Shown here: positions 33,136-47,729 of the stretch, piece after piece
Layout of the letters: the number at the start of each line of letters is the position of its first letter
How positions within the stretch are numbered: the first letter of the stretch is position 1
NCBI RefSeq assembly: GCF_000307105.1
Contig: NC_018645.1
Coordinates: 2,751,501 to 2,815,500 of the forward strand
DNA: 64,000 nucleotides
Direction: 5' to 3'
Source: Desulfobacula toluolica Tol2
GTDB lineage: Bacteria > Desulfobacterota > Desulfobacteria > Desulfobacterales > Desulfobacteraceae
Notes under the pieces: generated by a model
Seen by the model: only the letters and a program-made list of their open reading frames with translations
Told to the model about the DNA's origin: nothing
Database searches by the model: none
Position numbers and translations under genes: made by a program

Positions 33136-33609
33136 TTATAATTGTTTAATTTCAGGATACGATGCCAGGGTTTTTAAAAACTGGCGGGTATGCCGTTCAA
33201 TTCTTAACTTAAAAAGCTGAGCTACCTTAAACATCAAGGTGTGCCCGATTTTAAAATCTTCCACAAACAATTTATGCAGTTGGTCAGACGGAATGGTAAC
33301 AATCGAACATTTTTCAGCACAAACTGCAGCAAAAGAACTGGAAGGATCCTCAGTTAAAGCAGCCACCCCAAAGGTTCTTCCAGGCATTACTTTGTCCAGG
33401 GTCAAGGTTTTTCCTGAAGCGGTTTTAATGCTTAAATAAACCTTGCCGGAAACCAGCATATATAAATGCGTCAGTTTATGATTCTCGTCAAACAGGACTG
33501 TGTGTTCATCAAATGTTTCAAGATTTGCAATCATTCCTACTTTTTCAAATACAATATCAGGCAGATCCTTAAAGAAAAGTATTTTTTTCAATACGTCTTT
33601 TTCAACCAT
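33136..33609 (-). CDS. Cyclic-nucleotide-binding-fold protein, degenerate (second)
   Basis: 157 residues, a single CAP_ED beta-roll without any DNA-binding domain. The phosphate-binding cassette reads FGVAALTEDPSSSFAAVC, so the Glu and Arg that normally hold cAMP are absent and nucleotide binding is doubtful. It is paralogous to the next gene upstream (shared length, KDVLKKILFFKDL / LKRINIFKNV starts). It closes the antiporter gene block and could be a regulatory or scaffold subunit. Confidence 0.8.
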   Translation of the reverse strand: MVEKDVLKKILFFKDLPDIVFEKVGMIANLETFDEHTVLFDENHKLTHLYMLVSGKVYLSIKTASGKTLTLDKVMPGRTFGVAALTEDPSSSFAAVCAEKCSIVTIPSDQLHKLFVEDFKIGHTLMFKVAQLFKLRIERHTRQFLKTLASYPEIKQL

Positions 33610-33642
33610 TTTAAAGGCCCCAGCTAAAAATATGTTGTTCTA

Positions 33643-34128
33643 TTAACTATCGGAGATATCATCTTCTATATCCCGGTGTTTACCAAGCGTCTTCAGGATC
33701 ATCCCGGCCCGCACGTCCATGTATCGTTTGTATTGTTCTGAAACTTCCAGCATCATATAATATGCCAGTTCATGATTTTCTTCAAACAATTGAATCATCC
33801 TCGGCCCGGAAATGGTAATCAGTTCGCAGGGTTCCTGGCAAACCGCAGTATAAAAGGCATTTGATCCTTCAATGATTGAATACACACCAAAGCAGGCTCC
33901 GGCCTGGATATAATCAATAATAACATCTATCTCGGGCGTGAGTTCTTTTTTGACCGCCACCTGTCCCATAAGCAGCATATAAAATGTATCAACTTTCTCG
34001 TGTATGGTTATCAGCTGGGTATCGGTCCCGAAAATACTCAATTGCGCCTCTTTTGCAATAATCTCAAGTAATTTTTCAGACACATTCTTGAATATGTTAA
34101 TGCGTTTCAAATCTTCTATTTTTACCAT
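33643..34128 (-). CDS. Cyclic-nucleotide-binding-fold protein, degenerate (first)
   Basis: 161 residues, CAP_ED fold only. Its cassette is FGVYSIIEGSNAFYTAVC, again lacking the canonical Glu and Arg. It follows the last antiporter subunit by 40 nt and precedes its paralogue by 33 nt. The pair suggests duplication and possibly a heterodimer that senses something other than cAMP. Confidence 0.8.
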   Translation of the reverse strand: MVKIEDLKRINIFKNVSEKLLEIIAKEAQLSIFGTDTQLITIHEKVDTFYMLLMGQVAVKKELTPEIDVIIDYIQAGACFGVYSIIEGSNAFYTAVCQEPCELITISGPRMIQLFEENHELAYYMMLEVSEQYKRYMDVRAGMILKTLGKHRDIEDDISDS

Positions 34129-34168: not shown

Positions 34169-35959
34169 CTAAATTAACACATAAAGAAAAAGAATAAACG
34201 TAACGGTCACGGCAGCACCAATACCAATGGGCAATGTCCCCTGAAGCACATCATTATACAGCCTGTACTTTTTTATCTCCAGCCGCTTATCACGATAACC
34301 GATGAGCAGCCAGAAATTCACGGCAACAAATAAAGACACATTTGCACCGGCTCCCCCGAAAAAACGGGCAACCCCTGATGCACTGCTTCTGACAATGGCT
34401 TCACACCAAGCATTTAATGGATTTAGCCACTTGTCAAGGGTAGCATAAATTGATCTTCCCAATTTTCGGTAAATCCAGTCTGAATCCACATTTATTGCCC
34501 GCATTTCTGCGGGATAAATTCCGGAAAGAAGCAGCAGCGTAAAAGCAAGTGCCGAGAAAAAAAGCAATTGTGTCTGGGATAAAACGTGAGAAATGGTATA
34601 AGGATGGTAATCCACGGGAAAGGGCAGAATATCATACAAAGGTTTGGGATATGTTCCTATGCCCACGCACAAAACAGCTGCAATCCCCATTGCAATCAAC
34701 ATGTTTTTGGGCGCTTCTTTTACCCGGTGCCCGGCATCATGGCCGAAAAAAGCAAAAAACGGTATTTTTATTCCTGCATGGTGAAACACACCTGCCGACG
34801 CAAACAAAAGAACCAGCCAGACAAAAACATAAGCACCCTGCCCTGCAATGTGCGACCCGCTTGCAGCAGCTTCCATAACCATTGATTTACTTACAAATCC
34901 TGAAAAAAGCGGAAACGCTGAAATGGACGCAGCCCCTACACAACAAAAAAGACAGGTCCAAGGCATGCTCTTGTAAAGCCCTCCAAGATCCGTGGCATTG
35001 ATCTTGCCTGTGCGGTACATCACAGCGCCCATGGACATGAACAAGAGCCCTTTAAACAAAACATCATTGAAAACATGGGCACAGGCCCCGTTAATGGCCA
35101 ACTCCGTGCCTATACCGATCCCCACTACCATAAAACCGACCTGGTTGATCAGGCTGTAGGCCAGAACCCGCCTTAAATCATTTTCAATCACCGCATAAAA
35201 AATCGGGAATGCCGCCATGCCCACACCGATCCAGATCAACGCCTCTGTACCTGGAAAGAGTCTTGCCAAGGCATAAACAGCGGTTTTTGTTGTAAATGCA
35301 CTTAAAAAGACTGTTCCGCCAATGGTGGCTTCGGGATAGGCATCCGTTAACCATGGATGAAGAACAGGCCAGGCACAGTTAATGCCAATGCCAAAAAAAA
35401 TCATATAGGATGCCGGGCTGGACAAGGTCAATTTTAACATTTCAAGAGAGCCTGTTTGTGTCACATGAAATACAATGCCGGCAAGCAGAACAAGACCGCC
35501 AAAGGCATGAACCAGAAGATATCTGAAGCCTGCGGCCTGGGCAGATGGTGTCTTTCTGGCCCAGATCAGCAGAACCGATCCTATGGTCAGCATTTCCCAG
35601 AAAACAAAAAACGAAAACAGATCACCGCTGAAAACAGCGCCAAGAGCTGCTCCTGCATAAAAAAAACCAGCCACATACTCCACGTTATTTTTAAAATTGA
35701 GAATATAAATAACCGTGATAAATGAAATAATATGGAAAATATAGCCAAACAACAGGTTCAGCCGGTCAATATGCAGCAAAACAAGCTTAAACTCACCAAA
35801 ACCGATCAGGTGCATATCACCCATGGGAAGATAAAGAAGGTTGATAAACCCGGCAACAGGTAGCAGCAACATATATATGGATTTTGCCTTGCCCCTGAAC
35901 AAAGGAATAAAAAAACCGCCGATCATAAAAATAAAGGCCGGGAGAATGCTATTTGTCAT
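34169..35959 (-). CDS. MnhD/NuoL-like antiporter subunit (atypical)
   Basis: 596 residues, about 14-16 membrane helices, AAAGGAGG before the start. Proton_antipo_M family. The conserved TM5 glutamate is present (E122, FVFWEML) and the helix-8 lysine too (K225, FTTKTAVYAL). The TM7 lysine position in the GxxxKxAxxPxHxWL motif is N194, so its proton path may be altered. Longer C-terminus than the two other D-like subunits, as in NuoL/MrpA-type proteins. Starts 11 nt inside the preceding small gene. Confidence 0.85.
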   Translation of the reverse strand: MTNSILPAFIFMIGGFFIPLFRGKAKSIYMLLLPVAGFINLLYLPMGDMHLIGFGEFKLVLLHIDRLNLLFGYIFHIISFITVIYILNFKNNVEYVAGFFYAGAALGAVFSGDLFSFFVFWEMLTIGSVLLIWARKTPSAQAAGFRYLLVHAFGGLVLLAGIVFHVTQTGSLEMLKLTLSSPASYMIFFGIGINCAWPVLHPWLTDAYPEATIGGTVFLSAFTTKTAVYALARLFPGTEALIWIGVGMAAFPIFYAVIENDLRRVLAYSLINQVGFMVVGIGIGTELAINGACAHVFNDVLFKGLLFMSMGAVMYRTGKINATDLGGLYKSMPWTCLFCCVGAASISAFPLFSGFVSKSMVMEAAASGSHIAGQGAYVFVWLVLLFASAGVFHHAGIKIPFFAFFGHDAGHRVKEAPKNMLIAMGIAAVLCVGIGTYPKPLYDILPFPVDYHPYTISHVLSQTQLLFFSALAFTLLLLSGIYPAEMRAINVDSDWIYRKLGRSIYATLDKWLNPLNAWCEAIVRSSASGVARFFGGAGANVSLFVAVNFWLLIGYRDKRLEIKKYRLYNDVLQGTLPIGIGAAVTVTFILFLYVLI

Positions 35960-36221
35960 AATAATCCTCCTTTCTTTTTACCAGGGGTCTTAACACATAT
36001 TTTGACACCAGTACCAGTATCACACAGGCCACAAATCCGTAAAATGCATAAAAGCCCCAGAATTCCTCCCATTTATAATTCACATGCCGGTGAATCACAT
36101 GAGCCTTGGCAAGGAAAATATAAAAAACATCCAGAATCAGAAGAATGACCACAAAACTGAAAAAAAATGTTAACAGTCTTTTCACGTTCCGAGGATTATC
36201 AAACAGATGCTTTTTTTCCAT
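35949..36221 (-). CDS. Small membrane subunit, two helices
   Basis: 90 residues from the ATG with GGGGG 9 nt upstream. Two hydrophobic helices (LLTFFFSFVVILLILDVFYI and FYGFVACVILVLVSKYV) separated by a charged His/Trp-rich loop, with a basic C-terminus. Overlaps the next subunit by 11 nt. No family recognised; likely an accessory subunit of the antiporter complex. Confidence 0.65.
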   Translation of the reverse strand: MEKKHLFDNPRNVKRLLTFFFSFVVILLILDVFYIFLAKAHVIHRHVNYKWEEFWGFYAFYGFVACVILVLVSKYVLRPLVKRKEDYYDK

Positions 36222-36240
36222 GAGCAATACCCCCGATTCT

Positions 36241-36378
36241 TTAGAAGCAAGGTTGAAATAAAATATAGGCCATATATAAAAGGCTTACGCCAAACACAAC
36301 TCTGAACACGCTTTTATAGCCGGGTACAGGGTCATGTTTAAGTTCCATGAGTTCTTTTTTGTCTTTGAGGTTTGTCAT
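36241..36378 (-). CDS. Tiny single-span membrane protein
   Basis: 45 residues. The start is chosen at the ATG preceded by TAGGAGG, 8 nt after the stop of the upstream subunit; a longer reading would run backwards into that gene. A charged N-terminus (MTNLKDKKELMELKHD) precedes one helix (VFRVVFGVSLLYMAYILF). Its place inside the operon suggests a small accessory subunit. Confidence 0.6.
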   Translation of the reverse strand: MTNLKDKKELMELKHDPVPGYKSVFRVVFGVSLLYMAYILFQPCF

Positions 36379-36386
36379 AAACGAAA

Positions 36387-37868
36387 TCAGCCTCCTAAAA
36401 ATCCTTTGACGGCAAGTTGTGCCAGGTTTAAAAACGGTTGAGGAGCAAAAAAGAGAACAAATGAAATAAGTGCTGTAATCACAAGTGGCACCACACACAT
36501 CATGGGTGCTTCATCCATCTTATCCTCAAACATTGATTCCTCTTTTGTGCAGAAAAACGCTTTATAAAAAACAGGCATAAAATATGCTGCATTCAACAAT
36601 GAACTGGACAGAAGAACAAACAGCATTATCATCTGATCTCCCTCCAGGGTTCCTAAAACCAGATACCATTTACTGATAAACCCACCTGTGGGCGGCAGCC
36701 CGATAATGCTTAATGATCCGATAAAAAATGCGGTCATTGTAATCGGCATTCTTTTGCCCACCCCCACCAGCTGACTGATATACTTTTTTCCCGTGGCCAC
36801 AAAAATCGCACCAGCACAAAAAAACAGGGTGATTTTCCCAAAGGCATGCATGGCAATATGCAGCATGCCGCCGGTCATTCCCTTGGGTGATAACAATGTC
36901 ACCCCCAGGATAATGTAGGATAATTGCCCAATGGTGGAATAGGCCAGCCTACGTTTAAATTCATCCTGGGTCAGTGCAATGCAGGAACTTACCAGAATTG
37001 TAATGGAAGCAACGGCCGCCACCACAGCGCCCAAATTAAAGGATAAAAGAAAATCAATACCAAAAATGCCCGTGATTACCCTGACAATTGAAAAGGCACC
37101 AACCTTGACAACTGCCACTGCATGCAAAAGCGCACTCACGGGTGTGGGTGCAACCATGGCAGCCGGGAGCCATGAATGAAACGGCATGATACCGGCCTTG
37201 GCAAAGCCGAAAACAAACATCAGCAGCAAAACTGTTGCCGAAGGTTTGCTGATCTGGTCCGTAAAAATTCCTCCGGCAGCAAATTCAAGGGTTCCTGTCA
37301 CATGATAACAATAAATCATGGCTGGCAGAACAAGGCCGATGGAGGTTCCTAAAATAAAAATCAAATACTTGCGGCCCGATATTTTTGACTTGGCATCCTG
37401 GTGATGGGTCACCAAAGGATAGGTCGCAAGGGACAGCATTTCATAAAAAAGATACAATGTCAGCAGATTTGCGGAAAAAGCCGCACCAATTGTAGCCGAT
37501 ATTGCCAGGGCAAAAAAGGACACAAACCGGGTTTGCCCATGTTCATTAAGACCTCTCATATATCCTATGGAGTATATGGAGGTGATAATATATAAAGATG
37601 AGGCCACCAGGGCAAACAGCATTCCCAGGGCATCGACCCGAAAAGCAATATCCGCACCAGGTGCAATTTCAAACAAAGTCAATACAATCTGCTTTCCTTG
37701 TAAAATCTGGGGAAGCATGGAAATGACAATCAAAAATTTTATGGTTCCTGCAATAAATATCCATGATTCCCTTACATTGGGTTTTTCCGAAGAAGAGAGC
37801 AAAAGGGGTATGACGCAAAGAGAAACTAAAACTGCCAACAGGGGTTTAATTGAGATAATGGTTTCCAT
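36387..37868 (-). CDS. MnhD/NuoN-like antiporter subunit
   Basis: 493 residues, about 14 membrane helices. Proton-translocation residues are in place: TM5 E143 (LYLFYEMLSL) and TM7 K224 (FAKAGIMPFHSWLP), with APTPVSALLHA after it. One of three D-like paralogues in the operon. It follows the second paralogue by 38 nt and is followed by the tiny subunit after 8 nt. Confidence 0.9.
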   Translation of the reverse strand: METIISIKPLLAVLVSLCVIPLLLSSSEKPNVRESWIFIAGTIKFLIVISMLPQILQGKQIVLTLFEIAPGADIAFRVDALGMLFALVASSLYIITSIYSIGYMRGLNEHGQTRFVSFFALAISATIGAAFSANLLTLYLFYEMLSLATYPLVTHHQDAKSKISGRKYLIFILGTSIGLVLPAMIYCYHVTGTLEFAAGGIFTDQISKPSATVLLLMFVFGFAKAGIMPFHSWLPAAMVAPTPVSALLHAVAVVKVGAFSIVRVITGIFGIDFLLSFNLGAVVAAVASITILVSSCIALTQDEFKRRLAYSTIGQLSYIILGVTLLSPKGMTGGMLHIAMHAFGKITLFFCAGAIFVATGKKYISQLVGVGKRMPITMTAFFIGSLSIIGLPPTGGFISKWYLVLGTLEGDQMIMLFVLLSSSLLNAAYFMPVFYKAFFCTKEESMFEDKMDEAPMMCVVPLVITALISFVLFFAPQPFLNLAQLAVKGFLGG

Positions 37869-37906
37869 TTATTGATTTGCCTTTTTTATAATCATTTCAT
37901 TTAACT

Positions 37907-39391
37907 TTATTTTAGAAAAGGGAGGATAACCGTATTTACAATTGTTCCTGAAAAGAGTCCGACCACAATCAGGGAAAGACTGACAAGACCGGATACAATC
38001 AGCATGGATACAGGTGCTTCTTCAAGTGTGACTTCGCCATAAGAGTCACCATGTCCATGTTCTTCAGACATGGACTCAAAAAAGCAGATTTCAAAAACCT
38101 TAAAAAACAGGACAGCACAGATCAGGCTGGATATGATCAGGGCGGCGGCAAAATGATACGCGCCCGACTCAAATGCGCCCAAAATCAAATACCATTTGCT
38201 GAAAAATCCACAGGTTGGCGGCACTCCTATGATACTGAATGCTGCCAGAACAAATCCTGCCATGGTCCACGGCATTTTTCCGAACAGACCCTTTAAATCA
38301 ACCAGATCAACGGTTTTTAACCGACAAACCATATTGCCTACAGCAAGAAAAAGGGCAAAGGTCATCAGGGCATCATTTAATATGTGCAAAACAGCACCGG
38401 TCATACCAAGCTGGTTCCCCATCCATGCCCCGCCAACCATGTAACCGATTTCACATACAATGATATAGGTGAGCATTTTTTTTAAATTTGTCTGGGCAAG
38501 TGCCATTACACCACCTGCCAGGACTGCCAGAGTAGCAAGCCACACAACGGCATCGGCAAGGTTCAGGGTTTTAAAAATATAATCAAGACCGAATACCGTT
38601 ATCATCAGACGTATCATCACATAGACCATGACCTTTGTCATCAAAGGCGCCACCACCCTTGAAAAGGCAACGGGTGAATAGGCATAAGCATTGGGCAGCC
38701 ACACATGCATGGGGAAAAGTGCCATTTTGATCCAGACACCGATCATGCACAAAATAAAGGCAACCAGTACCGTGGATGATCCATTAATACCTGTAAGGAT
38801 ATTGGCAACGTCCGCCATGTTCAAAGACCCGGTTTTAAGATACAGGTATCCCACTCCCAAAAGATAGAAGCTGGCACCAATAACCCCGATAAAAACATAG
38901 TTCAAACTTGCCAGAGGCCCTCTGTCCCTATCTCCAAGGGCAACCATGGCGTAACTGGTTAATGAAGTGATTTCTATGAGAACATAAAGGTTGAACAGAT
39001 CCCCTGTGGCGCTTACGCCTAAAAGTCCTGTAACAAACAAGAGATAAATGGTGTAAAATGATCCGGTCCTGTCCGATGTTTCCTGTTTCACGCTTTGATA
39101 GCTTGCCACCATATTTAAAAAAGCTATGCCGGATACCAGCAGCAGCACCATGGCATTCAACAGGTCAATTGAGTATTCAATCCCCATGGGAGGTGCCCAG
39201 CCGGCCATCCTGTAATGGATGGGTCCAAAAGCAATGATTTGCATCAACACCTTGAATGCAAAAAACATTGAAAGGGCAAGTCCTGCAAGGGCAATGGGGT
39301 ATGATAACCGTTCTTCGATCCAGACCGCAAGCCCGGCTAAAAGGGCGGCTAAAAGCGGCGTAATAACAATGAGTGCTGGGTAATTATCCAT
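37907..39391 (-). CDS. mnhD: MnhD-type Na+/H+ antiporter subunit D
   Basis: 494 residues, about 14 membrane helices. TM5 E140 (LYVLIEITSL) and TM7 K222 (WIKMALFPMHVWLPNAY) are present. It begins 3 nt after the MnhC-like gene, the usual C-D order of mrp operons, so it is the canonical D subunit here. The His/Asp/Glu-rich loop near residue 445 (EEHGHGDSYGE) faces the solvent. Confidence 0.92.
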   Translation of the reverse strand: MDNYPALIVITPLLAALLAGLAVWIEERLSYPIALAGLALSMFFAFKVLMQIIAFGPIHYRMAGWAPPMGIEYSIDLLNAMVLLLVSGIAFLNMVASYQSVKQETSDRTGSFYTIYLLFVTGLLGVSATGDLFNLYVLIEITSLTSYAMVALGDRDRGPLASLNYVFIGVIGASFYLLGVGYLYLKTGSLNMADVANILTGINGSSTVLVAFILCMIGVWIKMALFPMHVWLPNAYAYSPVAFSRVVAPLMTKVMVYVMIRLMITVFGLDYIFKTLNLADAVVWLATLAVLAGGVMALAQTNLKKMLTYIIVCEIGYMVGGAWMGNQLGMTGAVLHILNDALMTFALFLAVGNMVCRLKTVDLVDLKGLFGKMPWTMAGFVLAAFSIIGVPPTCGFFSKWYLILGAFESGAYHFAAALIISSLICAVLFFKVFEICFFESMSEEHGHGDSYGEVTLEEAPVSMLIVSGLVSLSLIVVGLFSGTIVNTVILPFLK

Positions 39392-39394
39392 AGT

Positions 39395-39790
39395 TTATTC
39401 TTCCGATATGCGCATCCTGAGTTCATCTTCTTCCAGAGTCTGATACCGCTGGTATATTCTGACAGCCAATGCCATGGCAACGCCAAATGTCGCCACAGAA
39501 ACAACAATGGCAGTCAGCATGAGAACATGGGGCAAGGGATTTATATAATCCGCCGCATGGATGGCCGCCCCGTGTCCGCCATGAGCATTTTGAATAATCG
39601 GTATGGTGGCATCTGTCTTGAATCCTATGGAAACATAAAAAAGGATAATGGCAGTTTGAAAAATATTCATACCCACCAGTTTCTTGATCAGATTGTTTTT
39701 TGCAATCATGGCATAAAGGCCGATCATCATTAAAATCACATACAGCCAATAGTTGTATTTTGCCACGATAAGGGGAAGTAAATCCGTCAT
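39395..39790 (-). CDS. mnhC: MnhC/NuoK-like antiporter subunit C
   Basis: 131 residues with three membrane helices, the MnhC/NuoK fold: NLIKKLVGMNIFQTAIILFYVSIG and the HVLMLTAIVVSVATFGVAMALAV segment. It carries an inserted His/Gly/Ala-rich loop (about 66-82) typical of the MbhG/MnhC branch. It sits between the MnhB-fusion gene (8-nt gap) and mnhD (3-nt gap). Confidence 0.92.
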   Translation of the reverse strand: MTDLLPLIVAKYNYWLYVILMMIGLYAMIAKNNLIKKLVGMNIFQTAIILFYVSIGFKTDATIPIIQNAHGGHGAAIHAADYINPLPHVLMLTAIVVSVATFGVAMALAVRIYQRYQTLEEDELRMRISEE

Positions 39791-39798
39791 AGCCTAAC

Positions 39799-40623
39799 CT
39801 ATAATCCTTCCTCAAGCCTGCCTTCGGAGACGATATTAATATAAATAATTGCCATGACTGCTGTCACAGCAATCCCCACACCGATTTCAACCCCAAGCAT
39901 ACCCAGGGCCCTTACATGATGGGGATCTCCCGGCAACAAAGGTGCAAGACTTGAATAATCCAGAAAATTGCCCCCCATGAGCATGCAGAGAGAGGCAATC
40001 CCCACATAGATTAAGACACCGACAGCAGCAAAAATCCCAAGGACTTTTTCTTTAATTCTTTTCACAAGAATTTTAAGGTCATAGGAAATGGCTAAAAGAA
40101 TAAGGCTGGAACCGAAGATGACCCCGCCCTGAAATCCACCGCCAGGAGAAAAATCGCCATGGGCCACCACATACATGGCATAAATCTGGATAAAGGGAAT
40201 GAGTATCCGGCAGACCGTTTTAATAATCAGATCCGAAGGTACCCAGTCTCTATCCATATGTTCAAATTCCTTTCCCACCGGTAAAACCTTTTTGCTGTCT
40301 TTCACATGCAGGATAACCCCTGTGGGGACGTGGCGGTAAAACCGTTGTTTTTTCTCCCGAAAATCCCTTAGCAAAAGAAAGCAGGCTAATCCGGCACAAA
40401 AAATAACAGCTGTCTCAAACATGGTGTCAAACCCACGGTAATCGGCCAGTACAGCTGTTACCAGGTTGGGAACCTGTGTTTGCTCAACCGCGTTTTCAAT
40501 ATAATAGTTTGAAAGGTGAAGCGAAGCCGGGGATTGAGGGTCTCCCCAATCGGGAAAATCTGCTGTCCCATACAGCAAAAAACCGCCTGTCAGACAAACA
40601 ACAATAAATCCTGTAAATTTCAA
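39799..40623 (-). CDS. MbhE-MnhB fusion antiporter subunit
   Basis: 274 residues. The first 90 (signal-like helix, GTADFPDWGDPQSPASLHLSNYYIENAVEQTQVPNLVTAVLADYRGFDTMFETAVIF) match the MbhE / MrpA-C-terminal segment with its conserved NxVTxVLxDYRGxDTxxE motif. The rest (SDLIIKTVCRILIPFIQIYAMYVVAHGDFSPGGGFQGGVIFGSSLILLAIS) is a MnhB domain. Joining them in one chain links what MrpA and MrpB supply separately in typical Mrp systems. Overlaps the MbhD-like gene by 4 nt. Confidence 0.85.
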   Translation of the reverse strand: MKFTGFIVVCLTGGFLLYGTADFPDWGDPQSPASLHLSNYYIENAVEQTQVPNLVTAVLADYRGFDTMFETAVIFCAGLACFLLLRDFREKKQRFYRHVPTGVILHVKDSKKVLPVGKEFEHMDRDWVPSDLIIKTVCRILIPFIQIYAMYVVAHGDFSPGGGFQGGVIFGSSLILLAISYDLKILVKRIKEKVLGIFAAVGVLIYVGIASLCMLMGGNFLDYSSLAPLLPGDPHHVRALGMLGVEIGVGIAVTAVMAIIYINIVSEGRLEEGL

Positions 40624-40865
40624 TCTTTTGTCCTCCTGCTAGTCCTGAAAACAGCTGCAACAAAAAAAACCGTGCTGACACCGGCACCAACAGATGCTTC
40701 TGTAAAGGCAACATCCACTGCCCCCATAACAGCCCAGAGCAGGCACATCATAAATGAATATGCACCAAATAAAATGGCTGTTCCCAACAGATCTTTGACG
40801 GAGATGGCAGCAATGGCACAAAAAATCACAAAGGTTAACACGATCAAATCAATCAGCCAGTACAT
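40620..40865 (-). CDS. MbhD-like subunit (DUF4040)
   Basis: 81 residues with three helices. Conserved pattern AAISVKDLLGTAILFGAYSFMMCLLWAVMGAVDVAFTEASVGAGVSTVFF corresponds to the DUF4040/MbhD segment, found near the C-terminus of MrpA in canonical Mrp. It ends with a 4-nt overlap into the fusion gene and starts 2 nt after mnhG. Confidence 0.88.
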   Translation of the reverse strand: MYWLIDLIVLTFVIFCAIAAISVKDLLGTAILFGAYSFMMCLLWAVMGAVDVAFTEASVGAGVSTVFFVAAVFRTSRRTKD

Positions 40866-40867
40866 GA

Positions 40868-41191
40868 TTAACCCTTTCCTTTCTTCCTGGTCCAGTGTCG
40901 TAACCCTGCCCGCATTCCGGCATCAACAATGGAATGTGTTGCAGTGGGACTGGAAAGAAACACAAAAAATACAATTAAAAAGATTTTAATGGAAAGCAGG
41001 AGGGATTCAAAGGAAAAATGGTGCAGGTTATACAGGGCAAGCCCCATGACCATTACAAGGATTCCCATGGTATCCAGTATGCCAGCCGGATGAAGTCTGG
41101 TGTAAAACCCGGGCATTCTGACAATTCCAACAGCGCCTCCCAGAAAAAAGAACAAACCGATAAGCAAAAACAAAACAACAAGTAGGTTCAT
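40868..41191 (-). CDS. mnhG: MnhG-type antiporter subunit G
   Basis: 107 residues from the ATG preceded by TTTGGAGAGACC; an upstream in-frame start has no ribosome site. MnhG/PhaG motif GIVRMPGFYTRLHPAGILDTMGILVMVMGLAL is conserved, three helices. Small structural subunit of the Mrp complex. Confidence 0.92.
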   Translation of the reverse strand: MNLLVVLFLLIGLFFFLGGAVGIVRMPGFYTRLHPAGILDTMGILVMVMGLALYNLHHFSFESLLLSIKIFLIVFFVFLSSPTATHSIVDAGMRAGLRHWTRKKGKG

Positions 41192-41255
41192 GGTCTCTCC
41201 AAATTTAACAGTCAATATAACATTCAGTCAGTATATAACATTCAGTATATAATAA

Positions 41256-41543
41256 TCAGTCCAGAAAGGATTCTTCGTATAATCCTTTTCTTTTATGGAA
41301 ATAGCGTGATGCTGCAAGCACAGCCACAAAATTCAAAAAAGCATAGGCAAGAGCAATATCCACAAACATATCAACGCGTTCATAGAGAAAACCAATAAGC
41401 AGTAAAAGAACAACCGTTTTACTTCCAATGGCATTAACACCAACGAGTCGGTCCAGAACCGTGGGACCGAACAATACCCTGTACAAAGAAAAAAGCATCA
41501 GAAAACATAATCCCAATGCAACGCTTAGAAAGAAAGTATTCAT
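41256..41543 (-). CDS. mnhF: MnhF-type antiporter subunit F
   Basis: 95 residues, three helices, MnhF/PhaF pattern (LYRVLFGPTVLDRLVGVNAIGSKTVVLLLLIG, DIALAYAFLNFVAVLAASRYF). Overlaps mnhE by 4 nt, the usual E-F-G order. A 64-nt spacer with a short ATATAACATTCAGT repeat separates it from mnhG. Confidence 0.92.
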   Translation of the reverse strand: MNTFFLSVALGLCFLMLFSLYRVLFGPTVLDRLVGVNAIGSKTVVLLLLIGFLYERVDMFVDIALAYAFLNFVAVLAASRYFHKRKGLYEESFLD

Positions 41544-42091
41544 ATTTCTTCTCCAAAAACTTCTGCAACTTTTTTGAGCATAATGCCGGGTAAGCCTTCG
41601 GCAGATTTTTTGTCGATGGCATGAACTTTGAACACACCGTCACTGTTTGCCGATACCGTAATGGTTCCGGGGGTCAGTGTGATGGAATTGGCCAGGGTGG
41701 CTATGGCGATATCGGATTTTAAATTCGTTTTAAAAGTGATAATTTTGGGATCTATCAGATCTTTGAGCCTCGGGTGAAAGGCCAAGTACAGCAAATGGAA
41801 ATTAGCTTTAATGATTTCCCAAATTACCCAGGGAATATATTTCGTAAATTTTAAAAAAATAATAACATATCGTGGTTCCAATAAGGGAAACAAAAGATCA
41901 TAAAAATAGTATGACACAAAAAAACTTGAAATTCCCCCCAGCCATAACAGCAGTGGATCAAATTTGCCGGATAGCACAATCCAGGATAAAAACATTAAAA
42001 CGAATGTAATCAGAAAAGAAAAGAATACCTTAAAAAAAATATTTGTCGATTTAGCATAACTTTTGGCAACCCCATTGCTGGAAACAGTCAA
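41540..42091 (-). CDS. mnhE: MnhE-type antiporter subunit E
   Basis: 183 residues. I prefer the TTG start because AAAGGAGGT, a near-perfect ribosome site, lies 9 nt before it; an ATG 21 nt upstream would put that site inside the gene. Two helices near the N-terminus, then the MnhE soluble part (LIDPKIITFKTNLKSDIAIATLANSITLTPGT). First gene of the antiporter operon proper. Needed for assembly of Mrp complexes. Confidence 0.88.
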   Translation of the reverse strand: MTVSSNGVAKSYAKSTNIFFKVFFSFLITFVLMFLSWIVLSGKFDPLLLWLGGISSFFVSYYFYDLLFPLLEPRYVIIFLKFTKYIPWVIWEIIKANFHLLYLAFHPRLKDLIDPKIITFKTNLKSDIAIATLANSITLTPGTITVSANSDGVFKVHAIDKKSAEGLPGIMLKKVAEVFGEEI

Positions 42092-42142: not shown

Positions 42143-42613
42143 CTATTTTTCAACGCCGTACAGCTTGCGAAATTTGCCATACAACTTGCCTAATACGCCT
42201 TGTTGTTTTATCCCTTGAGAACCGTCAGATCCAGAGGACAGTTTTTCCTGCTGCATTCTGAAATCATAAGCCGCGTTTATGGTTTTGATAAGCGTATCCA
42301 TATCCACAGGCTTTGATAAAAATTTAAACGCATTGTATTTGCCGCTTTCCAGGGCATTTTCAACACTCCCATGCCCGGTGAGAACGATGCAGGGCAAATT
42401 CGGCTGAAGATCCTTGAGTTGTTTCTGGACTTCAATACCATCAATCCCCGGCATCTGCAAATCCACGACAGCGACGTCGAAATCCTCTTTTGAAGCGACT
42501 TCAACACCTTCTTCCCCTGAAAAAGTGGTTTTAACCGTAAATCCGTCAAGAATAAGCCGTTTGGCAAGATAATTCAAAAAGGTCTGTTCATCGTCTATGA
42601 ATAGGAGTTTCAT
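42143..42613 (-). CDS. Single-domain receiver protein
   Basis: 156 residues: one receiver domain with phospho-acceptor D51 (VAVVDLQMPG), T near 79 and K102-type lysine (LSKPVDMDTL), plus a basic 35-residue tail without any DNA-binding motif. Located 51 nt before mnhE in the same direction, so it probably relays a signal from the kinases upstream to a protein target, possibly the antiporter machinery. Confidence 0.88.
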   Translation of the reverse strand: MKLLFIDDEQTFLNYLAKRLILDGFTVKTTFSGEEGVEVASKEDFDVAVVDLQMPGIDGIEVQKQLKDLQPNLPCIVLTGHGSVENALESGKYNAFKFLSKPVDMDTLIKTINAAYDFRMQQEKLSSGSDGSQGIKQQGVLGKLYGKFRKLYGVEK

Positions 42614-42775
42614 AATTTATCCTTATTTATCCTTAAATAAGCTATGCTTCTGTTACCAACTCAAGTTGAGCAATACCAAAACCATGATTTGGAGTCAACA
42701 AATAATTCAAATTCAGTATTGCCGTTATAATAAAGTTATTTTCGACTAAACCCTATCACTGATAGAAGGCAATTA

Positions 42776-43657
42776 TCAAAAATCTTTTTCACCTGGAATA
42801 AGAAGACAGGGGAAAATGGATTTGTCGGCGATATTTTTTGAAATAGATCCTACCCATCGCTCCAAAATAGCCGCTTTTTCACTTGAACCTAAAATAATCA
42901 TACTGGCCTGGTATTCTTTTGCCGCTTTTTCAATCTCTTTTTGAGGATCTCCCACATATACATGGCCCCTGGCATTGATTCCATCTTGTTCAAGTTCATC
43001 ACAAAGCTCATCTAATTTTTTTCGTTCCACCTTTCTGACTTTCTGAACTTCATGAGTATCCGGACTTTTCAAAGCACTGTCTTTTACCACATGCATGATA
43101 TGAAGTTCACCAATGACATTTTTCATGCCCTTGATATATTCAACCGTCTTTTTACCGGTTTCTGACCAGTTTGTAGCAAACAAAGGCCGTTCAAACAATT
43201 TTTCAGGGACAATATTATCTTCCATCATGTGTTTGAATACCAGGATAGGAACTTTTGTGCGCCTGATCAACTCAGTAACATCAGATCCGGCATAAAGCTG
43301 TTCTAAAGGCCCTTTATGGGAACGACCGATCACAATCAGATCCGGCGACTCTTTTTTAACAACTCTGAGAATCTCAGGAATCAGACTGGAAACTTCCATG
43401 TAAGCACCGACTTCCATACCCATTTCAAATAAATTTTCCGCCCAGTCAATAAACCTGATATTTGCTATTTCTTTTAACTTGACTTCTTCTTCCTTAAGAT
43501 AGCCAACCCCTCTTTTCATTGCCACCTTGTCTCTTTCAATTACTGTCAGAAAAACGACATGCTCCAGTGCTGCGCGCCGTAACGCCAATAAAGACTTCAG
43601 CGCATCATAACAAAGGTCCTCAAACTTTGTTACAAAGAGTAATTTTCTTATTTCCAT
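42776..43657 (-). CDS. Tandem universal stress protein (UspA x2)
   Basis: 293 residues from the ATG preceded by TTGGAGGCATT. Two Usp domains in tandem. The first has the ATP-binding loop VIGRSHKGPLEQLYAGSDV, the second ILGSSEKAAILERWVGSI. The G-2x-G-9x-G(S/T) pattern is present in the first and modified in the second (no second Gly). It lies between a receiver gene and a further receiver gene, consistent with stress or energy-state signalling. Confidence 0.9.
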   Translation of the reverse strand: MEIRKLLFVTKFEDLCYDALKSLLALRRAALEHVVFLTVIERDKVAMKRGVGYLKEEEVKLKEIANIRFIDWAENLFEMGMEVGAYMEVSSLIPEILRVVKKESPDLIVIGRSHKGPLEQLYAGSDVTELIRRTKVPILVFKHMMEDNIVPEKLFERPLFATNWSETGKKTVEYIKGMKNVIGELHIMHVVKDSALKSPDTHEVQKVRKVERKKLDELCDELEQDGINARGHVYVGDPQKEIEKAAKEYQASMIILGSSEKAAILERWVGSISKNIADKSIFPCLLIPGEKDF

Positions 43658-43691
43658 AATGCCTCCAATCTCATCAGCTATAATCAATTAA

Positions 43692-44084
43692 TCAACCAAG
43701 TTTTTTTTTGATTGCCGCAGCCAGCTCTTCCGGTTCAACCGGCTTTTCCAGATAAATGGCAGGTTTGGGAACTTCACCGCCCTTGAATTCATCAAGTACT
43801 TTTTGAGACTTCAAAAAAGATCGAAGTGTAATCCCAGTAAACATGATAATGGGTATTTGGCTGAGATCTTCATCTGTTTTTAATTTACGATACAATCGAA
43901 TCCCGCTTCCCCTCGGCATCAGCACATCAAGAATTACCAGATCAGGATGTTCTTTTTTTATCACTTCCAAACCTTCCACACCATCTTGAGCAACCAAAGG
44001 CATATACTGGTTTTCTTCCAGAACTGTGACAACAAATGACCTGACATCCGGATCATCATCTACCACAAGAACCTTTTTACTCAT
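43692..44084 (-). CDS. Single-domain response regulator
   Basis: 130 residues from the ATG preceded by AAGGAGGATGGATT; longer readings overlap the kinase gene. Receiver only, D53 (LVILDVLMPRGSG), T and K (LEKPVEPEEL) at expected spacing. Adjacent to the kinase that ends 17 nt upstream, its likely phosphodonor. Confidence 0.9.
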   Translation of the reverse strand: MSKKVLVVDDDPDVRSFVVTVLEENQYMPLVAQDGVEGLEVIKKEHPDLVILDVLMPRGSGIRLYRKLKTDEDLSQIPIIMFTGITLRSFLKSQKVLDEFKGGEVPKPAIYLEKPVEPEELAAAIKKKLG

Positions 44085-44100
44085 AATCCATCCTCCTTGG

Positions 44101-45636
44101 TCAATTGATATCAACCCCATTTTCTTTTTCATAGGGAAGTTTAATCGTAAATGTGCTTCCATCTCCCAGGCTGGTTTCAGTTTTAATAACTCCATTGTGT
44201 TCTTCTATAAGCTTTCCTGTAACCAGTAATCCCAGCCCTGTGCCCTTCCCCCCTTTTGTACTGAACATGGGGTTAAACAACTGTTTTTGAGTATTTTCAT
44301 CCATTCCACAACCATTGTCTTTAACTTCAAAACACAAGTAATTGTCTCTATCTTTATACGTTTTAATCTTTATTTCATGAATTTTGGACGTATCTTCATC
44401 TTCAAGACAGGCATCAATAGCATTGTTAACAAGGTTAAGCAATGATCTATGAATGGTTTTCGGGTCTGCTATCACCTCGCCTATTCCTGTGTCAAGTTCT
44501 TTTAAAATGAGAACACCCTTTAATTCTGCAACAGCAACTACCAGCTCAATAACATCATTGGCAATAGCATTGGGATCGCACACTTCAAATTCCGGCTCCC
44601 GCTGCTTGGAATAAGTTAAAAGATCCTGAGTCAGATCCCCGACTCTTTTGATATTTTTTTTTATGGTTTCCCAACCGGTTTTGAGTTTCTCTGTATTATT
44701 TTTTTTAATCCCCACATCAACAACATAGCTGCCTCCTTTAAGCCCGATTAGGATATTTTTCACATAATGGGCAAGGCCGCTTACTGTCTGCCCTACCGCA
44801 GCCAGCCGTTCCGACTGGACCAGCTCTTTTTCAAGCCGTTTGATCTCCGTTAAATCCTGGAAAAAAGTAACTGTTCCAACGAACTCTCCTTTTTCATGGA
44901 GTACATTGCTGGTATATCGAATCGGAATCTGCCTGCCGTTTTTTGTGTTGATCGTATAATCCTTCCATGGCCGTGTTTTCCGGCTTTTATCCGTTTGGGC
45001 CTGGAGTTTAAAAATTTTTGCTATTTTAGGCATATAAAGATCGTCAATAGTCATTTTATTTCTGACATCCTTTGCAGGGCGACCAAACATCTTTGCCGCC
45101 TGAGGATTGTAAACTACGACAAGCCAGTCATGATCAAATGCCACAATGGCATCATTGGAGCTTTTGATCAACAGCCTCTGAAAATTTGATTTACGTCGAA
45201 TTTCTTCGGTTGCTTCTGCAATTTTAATTTCAAGATTTTCAGTATATTCCGCCAGTTTTTCCCTGATAGCAATCTTTGTTTTTGCTCTTTCAAGGGCAAT
45301 GGCCAGAGCCTCGTCCCTAACCGGTTTATTGATAAAATCACTGGCTCCAAGCTGAAGTGCCTTGATGGTTGAATCAATATCACCATGCCCTGTGACAATG
45401 ATCACTTCTTTTTCAGGATCAATATCCTTGATCTTTTTTAACAGTTCAAGCCCGTCCATTCCCGGCATTTTTATATCCGTGACCACGATATCGGGCCGTT
45501 GGGATTCAAACACCTCAAGTCCCTGCTCACCATTATAGGCAGTAAATGTTTCATACCCGTCACTTCGAAGAGAAATGGAAAGCAGCCTGACAATAATTTC
45601 TTCATCATCAACAATTAATATCTTATTGGCCGACAT
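44101..45636 (-). CDS. Receiver-PAS histidine kinase
   Basis: 511 residues: N-terminal receiver (D54, VVTDIKMPGM), coiled linker, PAS (about 155-268), HisKA with H290 in GLAHYVKNILIGLKGG, an atypical H-box lacking the usual E/D after His, and HATPase (NLVNNAIDACLEDED, DNGCGM, GTGLGLLVTGKLI). The receiver-first layout indicates it is itself a target of another kinase, probably the gene 12 nt upstream. Cytosolic. Confidence 0.92.
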   Translation of the reverse strand: MSANKILIVDDEEIIVRLLSISLRSDGYETFTAYNGEQGLEVFESQRPDIVVTDIKMPGMDGLELLKKIKDIDPEKEVIIVTGHGDIDSTIKALQLGASDFINKPVRDEALAIALERAKTKIAIREKLAEYTENLEIKIAEATEEIRRKSNFQRLLIKSSNDAIVAFDHDWLVVVYNPQAAKMFGRPAKDVRNKMTIDDLYMPKIAKIFKLQAQTDKSRKTRPWKDYTINTKNGRQIPIRYTSNVLHEKGEFVGTVTFFQDLTEIKRLEKELVQSERLAAVGQTVSGLAHYVKNILIGLKGGSYVVDVGIKKNNTEKLKTGWETIKKNIKRVGDLTQDLLTYSKQREPEFEVCDPNAIANDVIELVVAVAELKGVLILKELDTGIGEVIADPKTIHRSLLNLVNNAIDACLEDEDTSKIHEIKIKTYKDRDNYLCFEVKDNGCGMDENTQKQLFNPMFSTKGGKGTGLGLLVTGKLIEEHNGVIKTETSLGDGSTFTIKLPYEKENGVDIN

Positions 45637-45647
45637 AGTTTATTTCC

Positions 45648-47729
45648 TTATTCAATTGCTGGAAATTTGATTATAAAAGTCGCACCATTGCCATATACAC
45701 TCTTGATATCAATGGTTCCCCCATAATCTTTTATGATTCCAAAACTGATACTGGTGCCAAGACCAGTCCCTTTACCTGTCTCTTTTGTAGTAAAAAAGGG
45801 TTCAAATATTTTTCTTTTAACCTCATCTGTCATGCCAAGTCCGGTATCAGACACCTTAGTTACAACCCAATCTTCTTGAACATATGTTTTGATTTGCAGT
45901 ATTTTTTCCACAGGTACATCACCATTCTCAGTTGTTTTAGCTTTTTCAGCTTTTTCATCCATGGAATCAATGGCATTGGTCACAAGGTTTATAAACACCT
46001 GCTCCAGACGATTATGCTCTGCACGAATTTGAGGAATATCAGGATCAAGGTCAAGATCGACTTTAATGGAATGAACCATCAGCTGATGTCCCAAAACCTT
46101 GAACACGTCATTTATGGGGTCATTAATCACAAGTTTTTTCAAATCTCTTTCAGATTGCCTTGCAAAATCCCTGACATGCTTGATTACACCGGCTGCCCTG
46201 GCAACATTCTCAATAATATCATTGGCCATCATCACCATTTCATCGTCAGGAATTTTAAGTCCCTTTTTAATCATTTTCAAAATCAGGTCGGCACAGATCT
46301 GTATGACATTTAACGGCTGATTGATTTCATGGGCCATACCGGCTGCCATGGTTCCCAGGGTGGCCAGTTTCCCTGCCTGGATCAACTGGGTTTCTTTTTC
46401 AACACTCTCGGTGATATCAGTTGCTGATGCAATCAGCACATCCCGGTGACTATAGGTGGCAGTCACAACCTTGACATTAACAAAAAATGATTGTTTGTTT
46501 TTCTTAAAATGCTTTTTCTTTGTGAACAAAATGGAGTTTTTTTGGACAAGCCCCTCAAGGCCTTCTTTAATGGTTTCATCGGATTTATCCCCTATATCAA
46601 GAAAATCCATTCCTAAAAGTTCTGTTTTTGAGTACCCATACTCTTCTTCCACACGGTGATTCACATCCAGAATCTCAAGAGTTTGCCGATCTATGATAAA
46701 TATTGGGTTGGGGTTGTTGTTAAACAGGGACCTGTATTTTACTTCTGATTTTTTATATTTTTCATAGAGCCTGGACAATTCCTTGTCCTGCAACTCCAGT
46801 TCTTCCTGGGTTTTTTTGTCTTCTGTCAAATCTTTTAAGGTCTCAATAGCCCCCATCACCTTTCCGTCCGGCGATTTTATAGGGGCTGCGGTAAAAAAAA
46901 TCCATTTTCCATTTTCTCCGAGATGAGGAAAAAACTCTTCGGCTTCATACGCTTCTTTTATCAGTGCCGATTTTCTCCAGGCAGACCCATAATATTTTGT
47001 CACCTCTTGTTCCGACATTCCGCCTACTATCACATCAGCCATGGTGGGTCTCTTGGCCGACCTGAAAGGAACCCACTGCCGGTCTGTTCCCACAAGTTCA
47101 TAGGCATTGTGTCCGGTCAGTTCTTCACAGGCCCTGTTCCAGTGGGTAAGGATGTGTTCATTATTGATGATAAAGGTCGGAATCATGCTGCCCTGAATGA
47201 TCTGGGACATCTCTTTTTCCATCTCCAGAAGCCCTTCTCTTTCAACCTTAAGGTATTGGTTTTCTTGTTCAGCATTTTTTTGAACTTGAGTTAAAAACTG
47301 ATCCAGCAGTTCTAAAATTTCATTCTTGTCTATTTTATTCGCCTGAATTCTTCTTTTAATCTTAATCTTGTCTTCTTCTGCTTTTAAAAAATTCAAAAAG
47401 GACATGGCCCGGTAGGAAGTAAGATCAAAAATGCTGACGCATTCAGTATTCACTTTTTCCAGCATGCAGCCCAAAATTTCATCATTCTTTAGTTTTAAAA
47501 TAACATCAATACCTGAAAGGCTGCACACTTCATTATAATCCGTGGTTGTCAATATCCCTTTTTTTTGGGCATATTTTATTCCTTCAGCCTGTTTCAAAGT
47601 ATCTGCAACCACAATAACTTCAGGGGACAATTCTTTTAATCCAGGTCCCAGCAATATTTCAAGAATTTGTTTGCACGGACTGTTTCCACCTATTATTGCT
47701 AATTTTAATCTTTTAAGATCAATATTCAT
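45648..47729 (-). CDS. PAS histidine kinase with Rossmann-like N-terminus
   Basis: 693 residues. Residues 1-115 read like a nucleotide-binding fold (KLAIIGGNSPCKQILEILLG, EVIVVADTLKQAEGIKYAQKKGI, YNEVCSLSGIDVILKLKND), resembling CoA- or NAD-binding Rossmann domains. This is followed by a coiled coil, PAS (about 175-300), PAS (about 330-445), HisKA with H468 (AAGMAHEINQPLN) and HATPase (NLVTNAIDSMDEKA, DTGLGM, GTGLGTSISFGII). No membrane segment. Starts about 50 nt after the NhaD-like gene. Confidence 0.9.
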   Translation of the reverse strand: MNIDLKRLKLAIIGGNSPCKQILEILLGPGLKELSPEVIVVADTLKQAEGIKYAQKKGILTTTDYNEVCSLSGIDVILKLKNDEILGCMLEKVNTECVSIFDLTSYRAMSFLNFLKAEEDKIKIKRRIQANKIDKNEILELLDQFLTQVQKNAEQENQYLKVEREGLLEMEKEMSQIIQGSMIPTFIINNEHILTHWNRACEELTGHNAYELVGTDRQWVPFRSAKRPTMADVIVGGMSEQEVTKYYGSAWRKSALIKEAYEAEEFFPHLGENGKWIFFTAAPIKSPDGKVMGAIETLKDLTEDKKTQEELELQDKELSRLYEKYKKSEVKYRSLFNNNPNPIFIIDRQTLEILDVNHRVEEEYGYSKTELLGMDFLDIGDKSDETIKEGLEGLVQKNSILFTKKKHFKKNKQSFFVNVKVVTATYSHRDVLIASATDITESVEKETQLIQAGKLATLGTMAAGMAHEINQPLNVIQICADLILKMIKKGLKIPDDEMVMMANDIIENVARAAGVIKHVRDFARQSERDLKKLVINDPINDVFKVLGHQLMVHSIKVDLDLDPDIPQIRAEHNRLEQVFINLVTNAIDSMDEKAEKAKTTENGDVPVEKILQIKTYVQEDWVVTKVSDTGLGMTDEVKRKIFEPFFTTKETGKGTGLGTSISFGIIKDYGGTIDIKSVYGNGATFIIKFPAIE

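Follow-up and report, generated by a model that had tools for sequence, protein, structure and literature searches.

Mrp antiporters are membrane machines that balance salt and pH. Mrp gene sets that lack mrpA and carry one or more copies of mrpD are known as group 3 Mrp (PMC8415708). Two described cases, the stand-alone Mrp of P. furiosus and that of 'Ca. Nitrospira alkalitolerans', have E, F, G, MbhD/E, B, C and D subunits with neither MrpA nor a redox module, and in the Nitrospira locus two NuoM/NuoL-like genes lie behind mrpD (PMC7784846). In a further system, the green complex I of rhizobia, NuoL is replaced by two MrpD-like subunits, which have been counted as adding a fourth ion pump (PMC9040806); Complex_I_3 of 'Ca. 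Manganitrophaceae' is related to it. With both in print, neither operon type is new in itself. Here we describe an operon within a 64,000-bp window of the Desulfobacula toluolica Tol2 genome (C1:2751501-2815500 of a single contig of 5,197,905 bp), which runs on the minus strand from window position 42091 to 34169 with genes that overlap or are separated by short gaps. Besides the small Mrp subunits it encodes three antiporter-like subunits, D1 (37907..39391), D2 (36387..37868) and D3 (34169..35959), and two small proteins of 45 and 90 residues, s45 (36241..36378) and s90 (35949..36221), between D2 and D3. What is new is that D2 groups with MrpA and NuoL yet has no lateral helix, and that D3 has a lateral helix yet carries asparagine at the lysine site of transmembrane helix 7 (TM7). 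The operon represents a group 3 Mrp variant in which a cassette is shared with other operons and one pump-like subunit is without a hallmark residue.

The gene set that defines group 3 is the one found here. Neither a full-length MrpA, which operons of groups 1 and 2 contain, nor any redox gene was found within 34169-42091 by Pfam and NCBIfam searches and in the list of open reading frames. The original prediction, made from the sequence alone, had named MnhE, F, G, an MbhD-like protein, an MbhE-MnhB fusion, MnhC and three D-type subunits, with MrpA split among several genes; all of these are present by Pfam, with Proton_antipo_M in three proteins. Canonical Mrp of groups 1 and 2, such as that of the host's second operon, has the same small subunits and an MrpD-like subunit, but one long MrpA (757 aa in the host) where the window operon has MbhD, MbhE, D2 and D3. 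The stand-alone Mrp of P. furiosus differs in having one D-type subunit rather than three. With the MBS and MBH complexes of P. furiosus the operon shares the split MbhD and an MbsE-like fusion of MbhE with B (PMC8415708), and its D3 is related to MbsH′. Those complexes have two (MBS) or one (MBH) antiporter-like subunits against three here, and the redox module that they encode with the membrane arm is absent from the window operon and was matched in none of 67 relatives of its type. An Mrp operon on a plasmid of the haloarchaeon Haloterrigena alkaliphila has the order E-F-G-DUF4040-B-C-D1-D2-D3 and likewise an asparagine in TM7 of D3, but its D2 and D3 genes abut, leaving no room for s45 and s90, and no match to either small protein was found in its D proteins.

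Conservation was assessed over 115 loci (L041-L155) that were sorted with profiles made from the window's own proteins. A locus was classed as Mrp-type if its D3 was accompanied by one or more of E, F, G, MbhE-B and a strong D1; this gave 67 Mrp-type loci, with 26 complex I-type and 22 unassigned. Since overlapping loci and near-copies are among them (L075 and L091 belong to a single contig), all counts are of loci and not of independent events. A pumping subunit is expected to combine a TM5 Glu, a TM7 Lys, a TM8 Lys and a TM12 Lys or Glu. D1 has E140, K222, K253 and K399 at these places and D2 has E143, K224, K255 and K400; D3 has E122, N194, K225 and K358, and thus falls short at TM7. Among the distinct sequences from these loci and the window, with the TM7 site defined by alignment with E. 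coli NuoL and NuoM, the lysine is present in every D1 (69/69) and every D2 (110/110). At the same site 118 of 121 D3 sequences have asparagine, two have lysine (L150 and L155) and one has a gap. The remaining D3 residues are kept, with TM5 Glu and TM8 Lys in 120 sequences each (one gap each) and TM12 Lys in 120 (Glu in one). Lysine also occupies the TM7 site in 22 of 24 reference proteins, the other two being the D3 of Sinorhizobium and Haloterrigena with asparagine, and in 12/12 NuoM and NuoN proteins from the complex I-type loci. The missing lysine makes it doubtful that D3 is an extra pump, as had been proposed at first. D2 has the TM8 histidine in 31/31 aligned rows, a residue described as conserved only in NuoL and MrpA (PMC4938563). 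No mention of the D3 asparagine was found in the literature searched, in which some sources were available in part; Degli Esposti & Martinez Romero 2016 and Chadwick 2018 may hold it.

The predicted structure of D3 has a mean predicted local distance difference test score (pLDDT) of 82.7, ranging from 47 to 81 per ten-residue block in the helix region, and places TM15 at residues 456-479, the lateral helix at 494-553 and a last membrane helix at 578-595. Foldseek puts MrpA of B. pseudofirmus first among the matches of this model (E 1.9e-22). In VIA-align, NuoL, MrpD, MrpA and MbsH′ are tied at Z 42 to 44, and MbsH′ has the highest identity to D3 among the rows shown (28%). D2, with 493 residues, stops ahead of any lateral helix. 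Measured as residues past the DW-YR motif, the helix region is 98 long in the window D3, with a median of 99 in Mrp-type D3 (n=71) and 96 in complex I-type D3 (25 measured of 26), and about 67 in E. coli NuoL by hand count. Shorter Mrp-type D3 proteins, with 65 to 75 residues past the motif, occur in L058, L060 and L063. The two D3 with a TM7 lysine, from loci of unassigned operon type, are short in this region too (72 residues), and one complex I-type D3 (L064, 9289-11130) extends to 121 residues and repeats a VDGxVNG stretch, which looks like the addition of one module length.

In a tree of 92 proteins over 451 columns, D1 forms one clade (99/99) that includes the haloarchaeal D1. D2 forms one clade (100/100), sister (95/90) to MrpA, NuoL, HyfD and the NuoL-like subunit of a hydrogenase-type cluster; the branches of E. 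coli NuoL and HyfD are long. D3 forms one clade (100/100), sister to MbsH′ (99/92). The operon had at first been likened to an Mbh membrane arm expanded with extra pumps, to be checked by the phylogeny of its D-type subunits. The place of D3 next to MbsH′ and the MbsE-like MbhE-MnhB fusion agree with this likeness, and the place of D2 beside MrpA and NuoL and the separate clade of D1 do not. The gene set as a whole fits group 3 Mrp as defined in print. An origin of D2 and D3 as tandem duplicates was weakly rejected, since a joint clade costs 15.7 log-likelihood units (approximately unbiased test, p-AU 0.022). With the types of D3 fixed by gene order before the tree was made, a single clade of complex I-type D3 was rejected (p-AU 3.5e-5), and D3 therefore appears to have changed home more than once. 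The grouping of complex I-type D2 in one clade has weak support (62/41).

In a draw of 247 genomes from the phylum, 111 have the D3 family above its cut-off. Scanning of named genomes gave 236 relatives, of which the best 80 were listed, so rarer variants are under-represented. Named hosts include Thermodesulfobacteriota, Nitrospirota, Planctomycetota, Deferribacterota, Actinomycetota and Verrucomicrobiota; host records labelled 'Deltaproteobacteria' came out as Myxococcota, an assignment that we do not trust. The prevailing Mrp-type order is E-F-G-MbhD-(MbhE-B)-C-D1-D2-s45-s90-D3, which is found exactly in 21 loci, and most other loci depart from it in that MbhE/B is split, s45 is missing or the contig ends. 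MnhE is visible in 57 of the 67 Mrp-type loci; MbhE and B form a single protein in 36 of the 67 and occur as separate pieces in 26. Three Mrp-type D3 have no D2 in view. Where both ends of the D2-D3 interval are visible in Mrp-type loci, s90 lies in it in 69/70 pairs and s45 in 60/70, so the two small membrane proteins that the original prediction had picked out are genuine. We also observed a second D2-s45-s90-D3 in L111, a second s90-D3 in L048, and a second D3-s90-s45 on the opposite strand in L080 and L082.

The second setting of the cassette is in complex I operons. The 26 complex I-type loci have D2-s90-D3 beside a NuoK-like gene and two NuoM/NuoN-like genes. For five such loci the individual genes were gone through as far as they were listed, and the NuoM/N proteins of six group with NuoM and NuoN in the tree. 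In these loci s90 is found in 23/24 visible D2-D3 intervals and s45 in 2/24. The Sinorhizobium plasmid pM103b exemplifies the arrangement, with D2-s90-D3 among annotated nuo genes, window-family matches of 712 (D2), 82 (s90) and 800 (D3) bits, and the same TM7 asparagine in D3. The complex I-type loci with the cassette are the green complex I of PMC9040806, whose two MrpD-like subunits in place of NuoL have their homologues in the D2-s90-D3 of the window. The surroundings differ, in that green complex I has its cassette beside NuoA-E, G, H, J, K, M and N, and the window operon has its own beside the Mrp set, with no complex I subunits next to it.

Related operons were searched for redox modules with E. 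coli NuoCD, F, H, I and J and with HyfC, G and I, in which HyfI, a NuoB homologue, stands in for NuoB. There was no match to NuoCD, NuoH, NuoJ, HyfC, HyfG or HyfI in the 67 Mrp-type loci. The same queries found NuoH and NuoI in 25 of the 26 complex I-type loci, NuoCD and HyfG in 23 and HyfI in 22, which indicates that they work. The remaining hits in Mrp-type loci were NuoI-like ferredoxins (L055, L060) and, in L148, a NuoF-like gene on the other strand and about 3.4 kb from D3. Inside the operon, MrpA or a hydrogenase or complex I module was found in none of the 67 Mrp-type relatives, 57 of which have the E end in view; the claim that the operon stands alone, which such a finding in relatives was to overturn, is therefore upheld. 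In L142, the operon is adjoined by a second Mrp set, separate from it and canonical, whose MrpA has 774 aa. Weak matches to the D2 profile near Mrp-type operons were a protein of 688 aa on the other strand in L109 and one of 508 aa in L128.

Elsewhere in the host genome, a search with PF00361 returned seven antiporter-like genes, namely the three described here, the MrpA and MrpD of a second Mrp operon (L008) and two genes of a Hyf-like cluster (L009). The second Mrp operon (C1:252000-263000) is canonical, with an MrpA of 757 aa plus B, C, D, E, F and G; the gene ahead of it resembles a Usp protein by eye. Matches to PF00346, the type of NuoD and the hydrogenase large subunit, were confined to the Hyf-like cluster, and those to PF01058 (Oxidored_q6) fell in this cluster and at a second place, C1:4588543-4588992. 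No complex I was seen in the genome with PF00361, PF00346 and PF01058, the PF01058 place at C1:4588543 lying outside that check, and so no spare peripheral module is evident. The search for peripheral subunits that had been suggested at the outset thus leads to a cluster with two antiporter-like subunits of its own, which has no need of the D1-D2-D3 arm, and the recruitment of its peripheral module by the window operon was rejected for that reason.

We consider it probable that the operon encodes a stand-alone group 3 Mrp-type monovalent cation/H+ antiporter in which D1 and D2 pump and D3 serves as a strap. The roles of MrpA would be shared out among MbhD, the MbhE-MnhB fusion, D2 and D3. D1, as the equivalent of MrpD, and D2, as that of the N-terminal half of MrpA, would form two H+-conducting units, and the cation path would be carried by E, F, G, MbhD/MbhE, B and C. 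Since D3 has a lateral helix without the TM7 lysine and D1 and D2 have the lysine, we infer two conventional pumps and a strap, with D3 holding together the row of antiporter-like subunits instead of pumping in the usual way; s90, and perhaps s45, would be placed with D2 and D3. Judged from residues and predicted fold, the number of competent pumps would be the same as in ordinary Mrp. Gene content, conservation, phylogeny, residue pattern and the predicted fold of D3 are direct results of the analysis; Na+/H+ exchange is the most likely activity, and the direction of transport, the order of the subunits in the membrane and the place of s45 and s90 are presumed. Along the proposed Na+ route (PMC9568556), alignment with canonical subunits indicates that the MrpF aspartate, the PGGGF motif of MrpB and the glutamate following FDT in MbhE are kept.

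Several points weigh against this explanation. MbhD has nothing equivalent at the position of the MrpA TM19 glutamate, which is part of the proposed Na+ route; a glutamate of MbhD lies one turn earlier. MbsH has glutamate at the TM7 site and has nonetheless been proposed to pump (PMC7684303), the variants NuoL K229A and MrpA K196A retained the ability to complement in B. subtilis (PMC4938563), and two D3 do carry the lysine. The lateral helix has been described as matching the number of modules in length (PMC7684303), and an extra module as accompanied by a 26-residue insertion (PMC9040806). As a ruler of module number, however, it had to be set aside, as complex I-type D3 fits four modules and Mrp-type D3 is one module too long; the helix is equally long in the three-module Mrp-type and the four-module complex I-type operons. 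This would fit a complex with two copies of one subunit, a helix that extends across MrpC and MbhD/E, or a helix length that does not depend on module number.

If all three D subunits pumped, the H+ to cation ratio would be higher than in ordinary Mrp, which would be useful at a small driving force. The conservation of the D3 TM5 Glu, TM8 Lys and TM12 Lys (each 120/121), the proposal for MbsH mentioned above and the counting of a D3-type subunit as a pump (PMC9040806) all speak for such an arrangement. We nevertheless regard it as rather unlikely given the asparagine in 118 of 121 D3, which contrasts with lysine in all reference proteins but the two D3. D3 could also be a cation-conducting unit in which the TM5 Glu, having lost its partner lysine and now opposite an asparagine, would bind Na+ or K+. 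The pairing of this glutamate (120/121) with the TM7 asparagine (118) would suit that role, and simulations have led to the proposal of a Na+ route via the Glu of the MrpD Lys/Glu pair (PMC9568556). The same D3 family, however, is also part of complex I-type operons, for which one would not expect a cation path, and we give this idea very little credence. A redox-driven complex with its peripheral subunits encoded elsewhere would account for the kinship of D3 with MbsH′ of the sulfur reductase MBS (99/92) and for the redox modules that adjoin D2-s90-D3 in 26 complex I-type loci. It is highly improbable in view of the 67 Mrp-type loci, none of which matches NuoCD, NuoH, NuoJ, HyfC, HyfG or HyfI, and of a host genome whose PF00346 matches lie only in a cluster with its own antiporter-like subunits, the second PF01058 place (C1:4588543) being left aside.

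Beyond the antiporter with two pumps and a strap, it is possible, though we hold it at somewhat less than even confidence, that NuoL/MrpA is here divided into an exchangeable cassette with D2 as pump and D3 as strap, that D3 has moved repeatedly between Mrp and complex I, and that published pump counts are one too high. If D3 is a strap, the four or five pumps published for such complex I may be one too many, and the cassette reading, if true, would lower the published number of H+ pumps by one for green complex I and for its five-subunit relative. A cassette common to Mrp-type and complex I-type operons also bears on the assembly of complex I from Mrp parts. Here the pump core and the lateral helix are on separate genes, and one pump body has by nature lost a residue that is commonly described as conserved. 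The number of protons moved per antiporter-like module and the strap function of the lateral helix, structural or mechanical, which are at issue for complex I and Mrp alike, thus become testable by changing a single residue or subunit.

Every subunit of the operon except s45 and s90 is named by Pfam or NCBIfam, and all genes lie on the minus strand. The MnhE/MrpE subunit (41540..42091; PF01899, MNHE, E 8.6e-33) was given by eye a TTG start at 42091, behind AAAGGAGG. MnhF/MrpF (41256..41543) matches PF04066 (MrpF_PhaF, E 3.4e-14) and in the alignment retains the membrane Asp of VDIAL. MnhG/MrpG (40868..41191; PF03334, PhaG_MnhG, E 7.4e-22) was assigned by eye the ATG at 41191, the listed open reading frame starting at 41215. 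The MbhD-like subunit (40620..40865; PF13244, E 7.2e-20) corresponds to part of the C-terminal half of MrpA. It is followed by the MbhE-MnhB fusion (39799..40623; PF04039, E 2e-26, and PF20501, E 1.8e-11), in which alignment indicates that PGGGF and the Glu of FDTxxE are retained, and by MnhC/MrpC (39395..39790; PF00420, Oxidored_q2, E 4.3e-20; NF005621, 128.1 bits against a cut-off of 126). D1 (PF00361, Proton_antipo_M, E 1.1e-50) is MrpD/MbhH-like by the tree. D2 matches PF00361 (E 1.5e-55) and PF00662 and scores 658.7 bits with NF006236, slightly under the cut-off of 663. D3 scores 710 bits with NF009310, 'Na(+)/H(+) antiporter subunit D', against a cut-off of 564. The s45 protein has no Pfam match and is, by eye, probably a single membrane helix; the model of s90 (mean pLDDT 79.3) shows two helices, at residues 10-39 and 57-81. 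A relation of s90 to Pfam GOST_TM was rejected at 20.4-20.9 bits, under the cut-off of 25.2, and one to NuoL, at 5 bits with filters off, was dismissed as noise.

Upstream of the operon (window 42143-47729) lie genes for response regulators, a two-domain Usp protein and histidine kinases, and downstream of it (33136-34128) are genes for two cyclic-nucleotide-binding proteins. As the closest relatives retain high-scoring matches to several of these flanking regulator genes, the operon may be under the control of signals.

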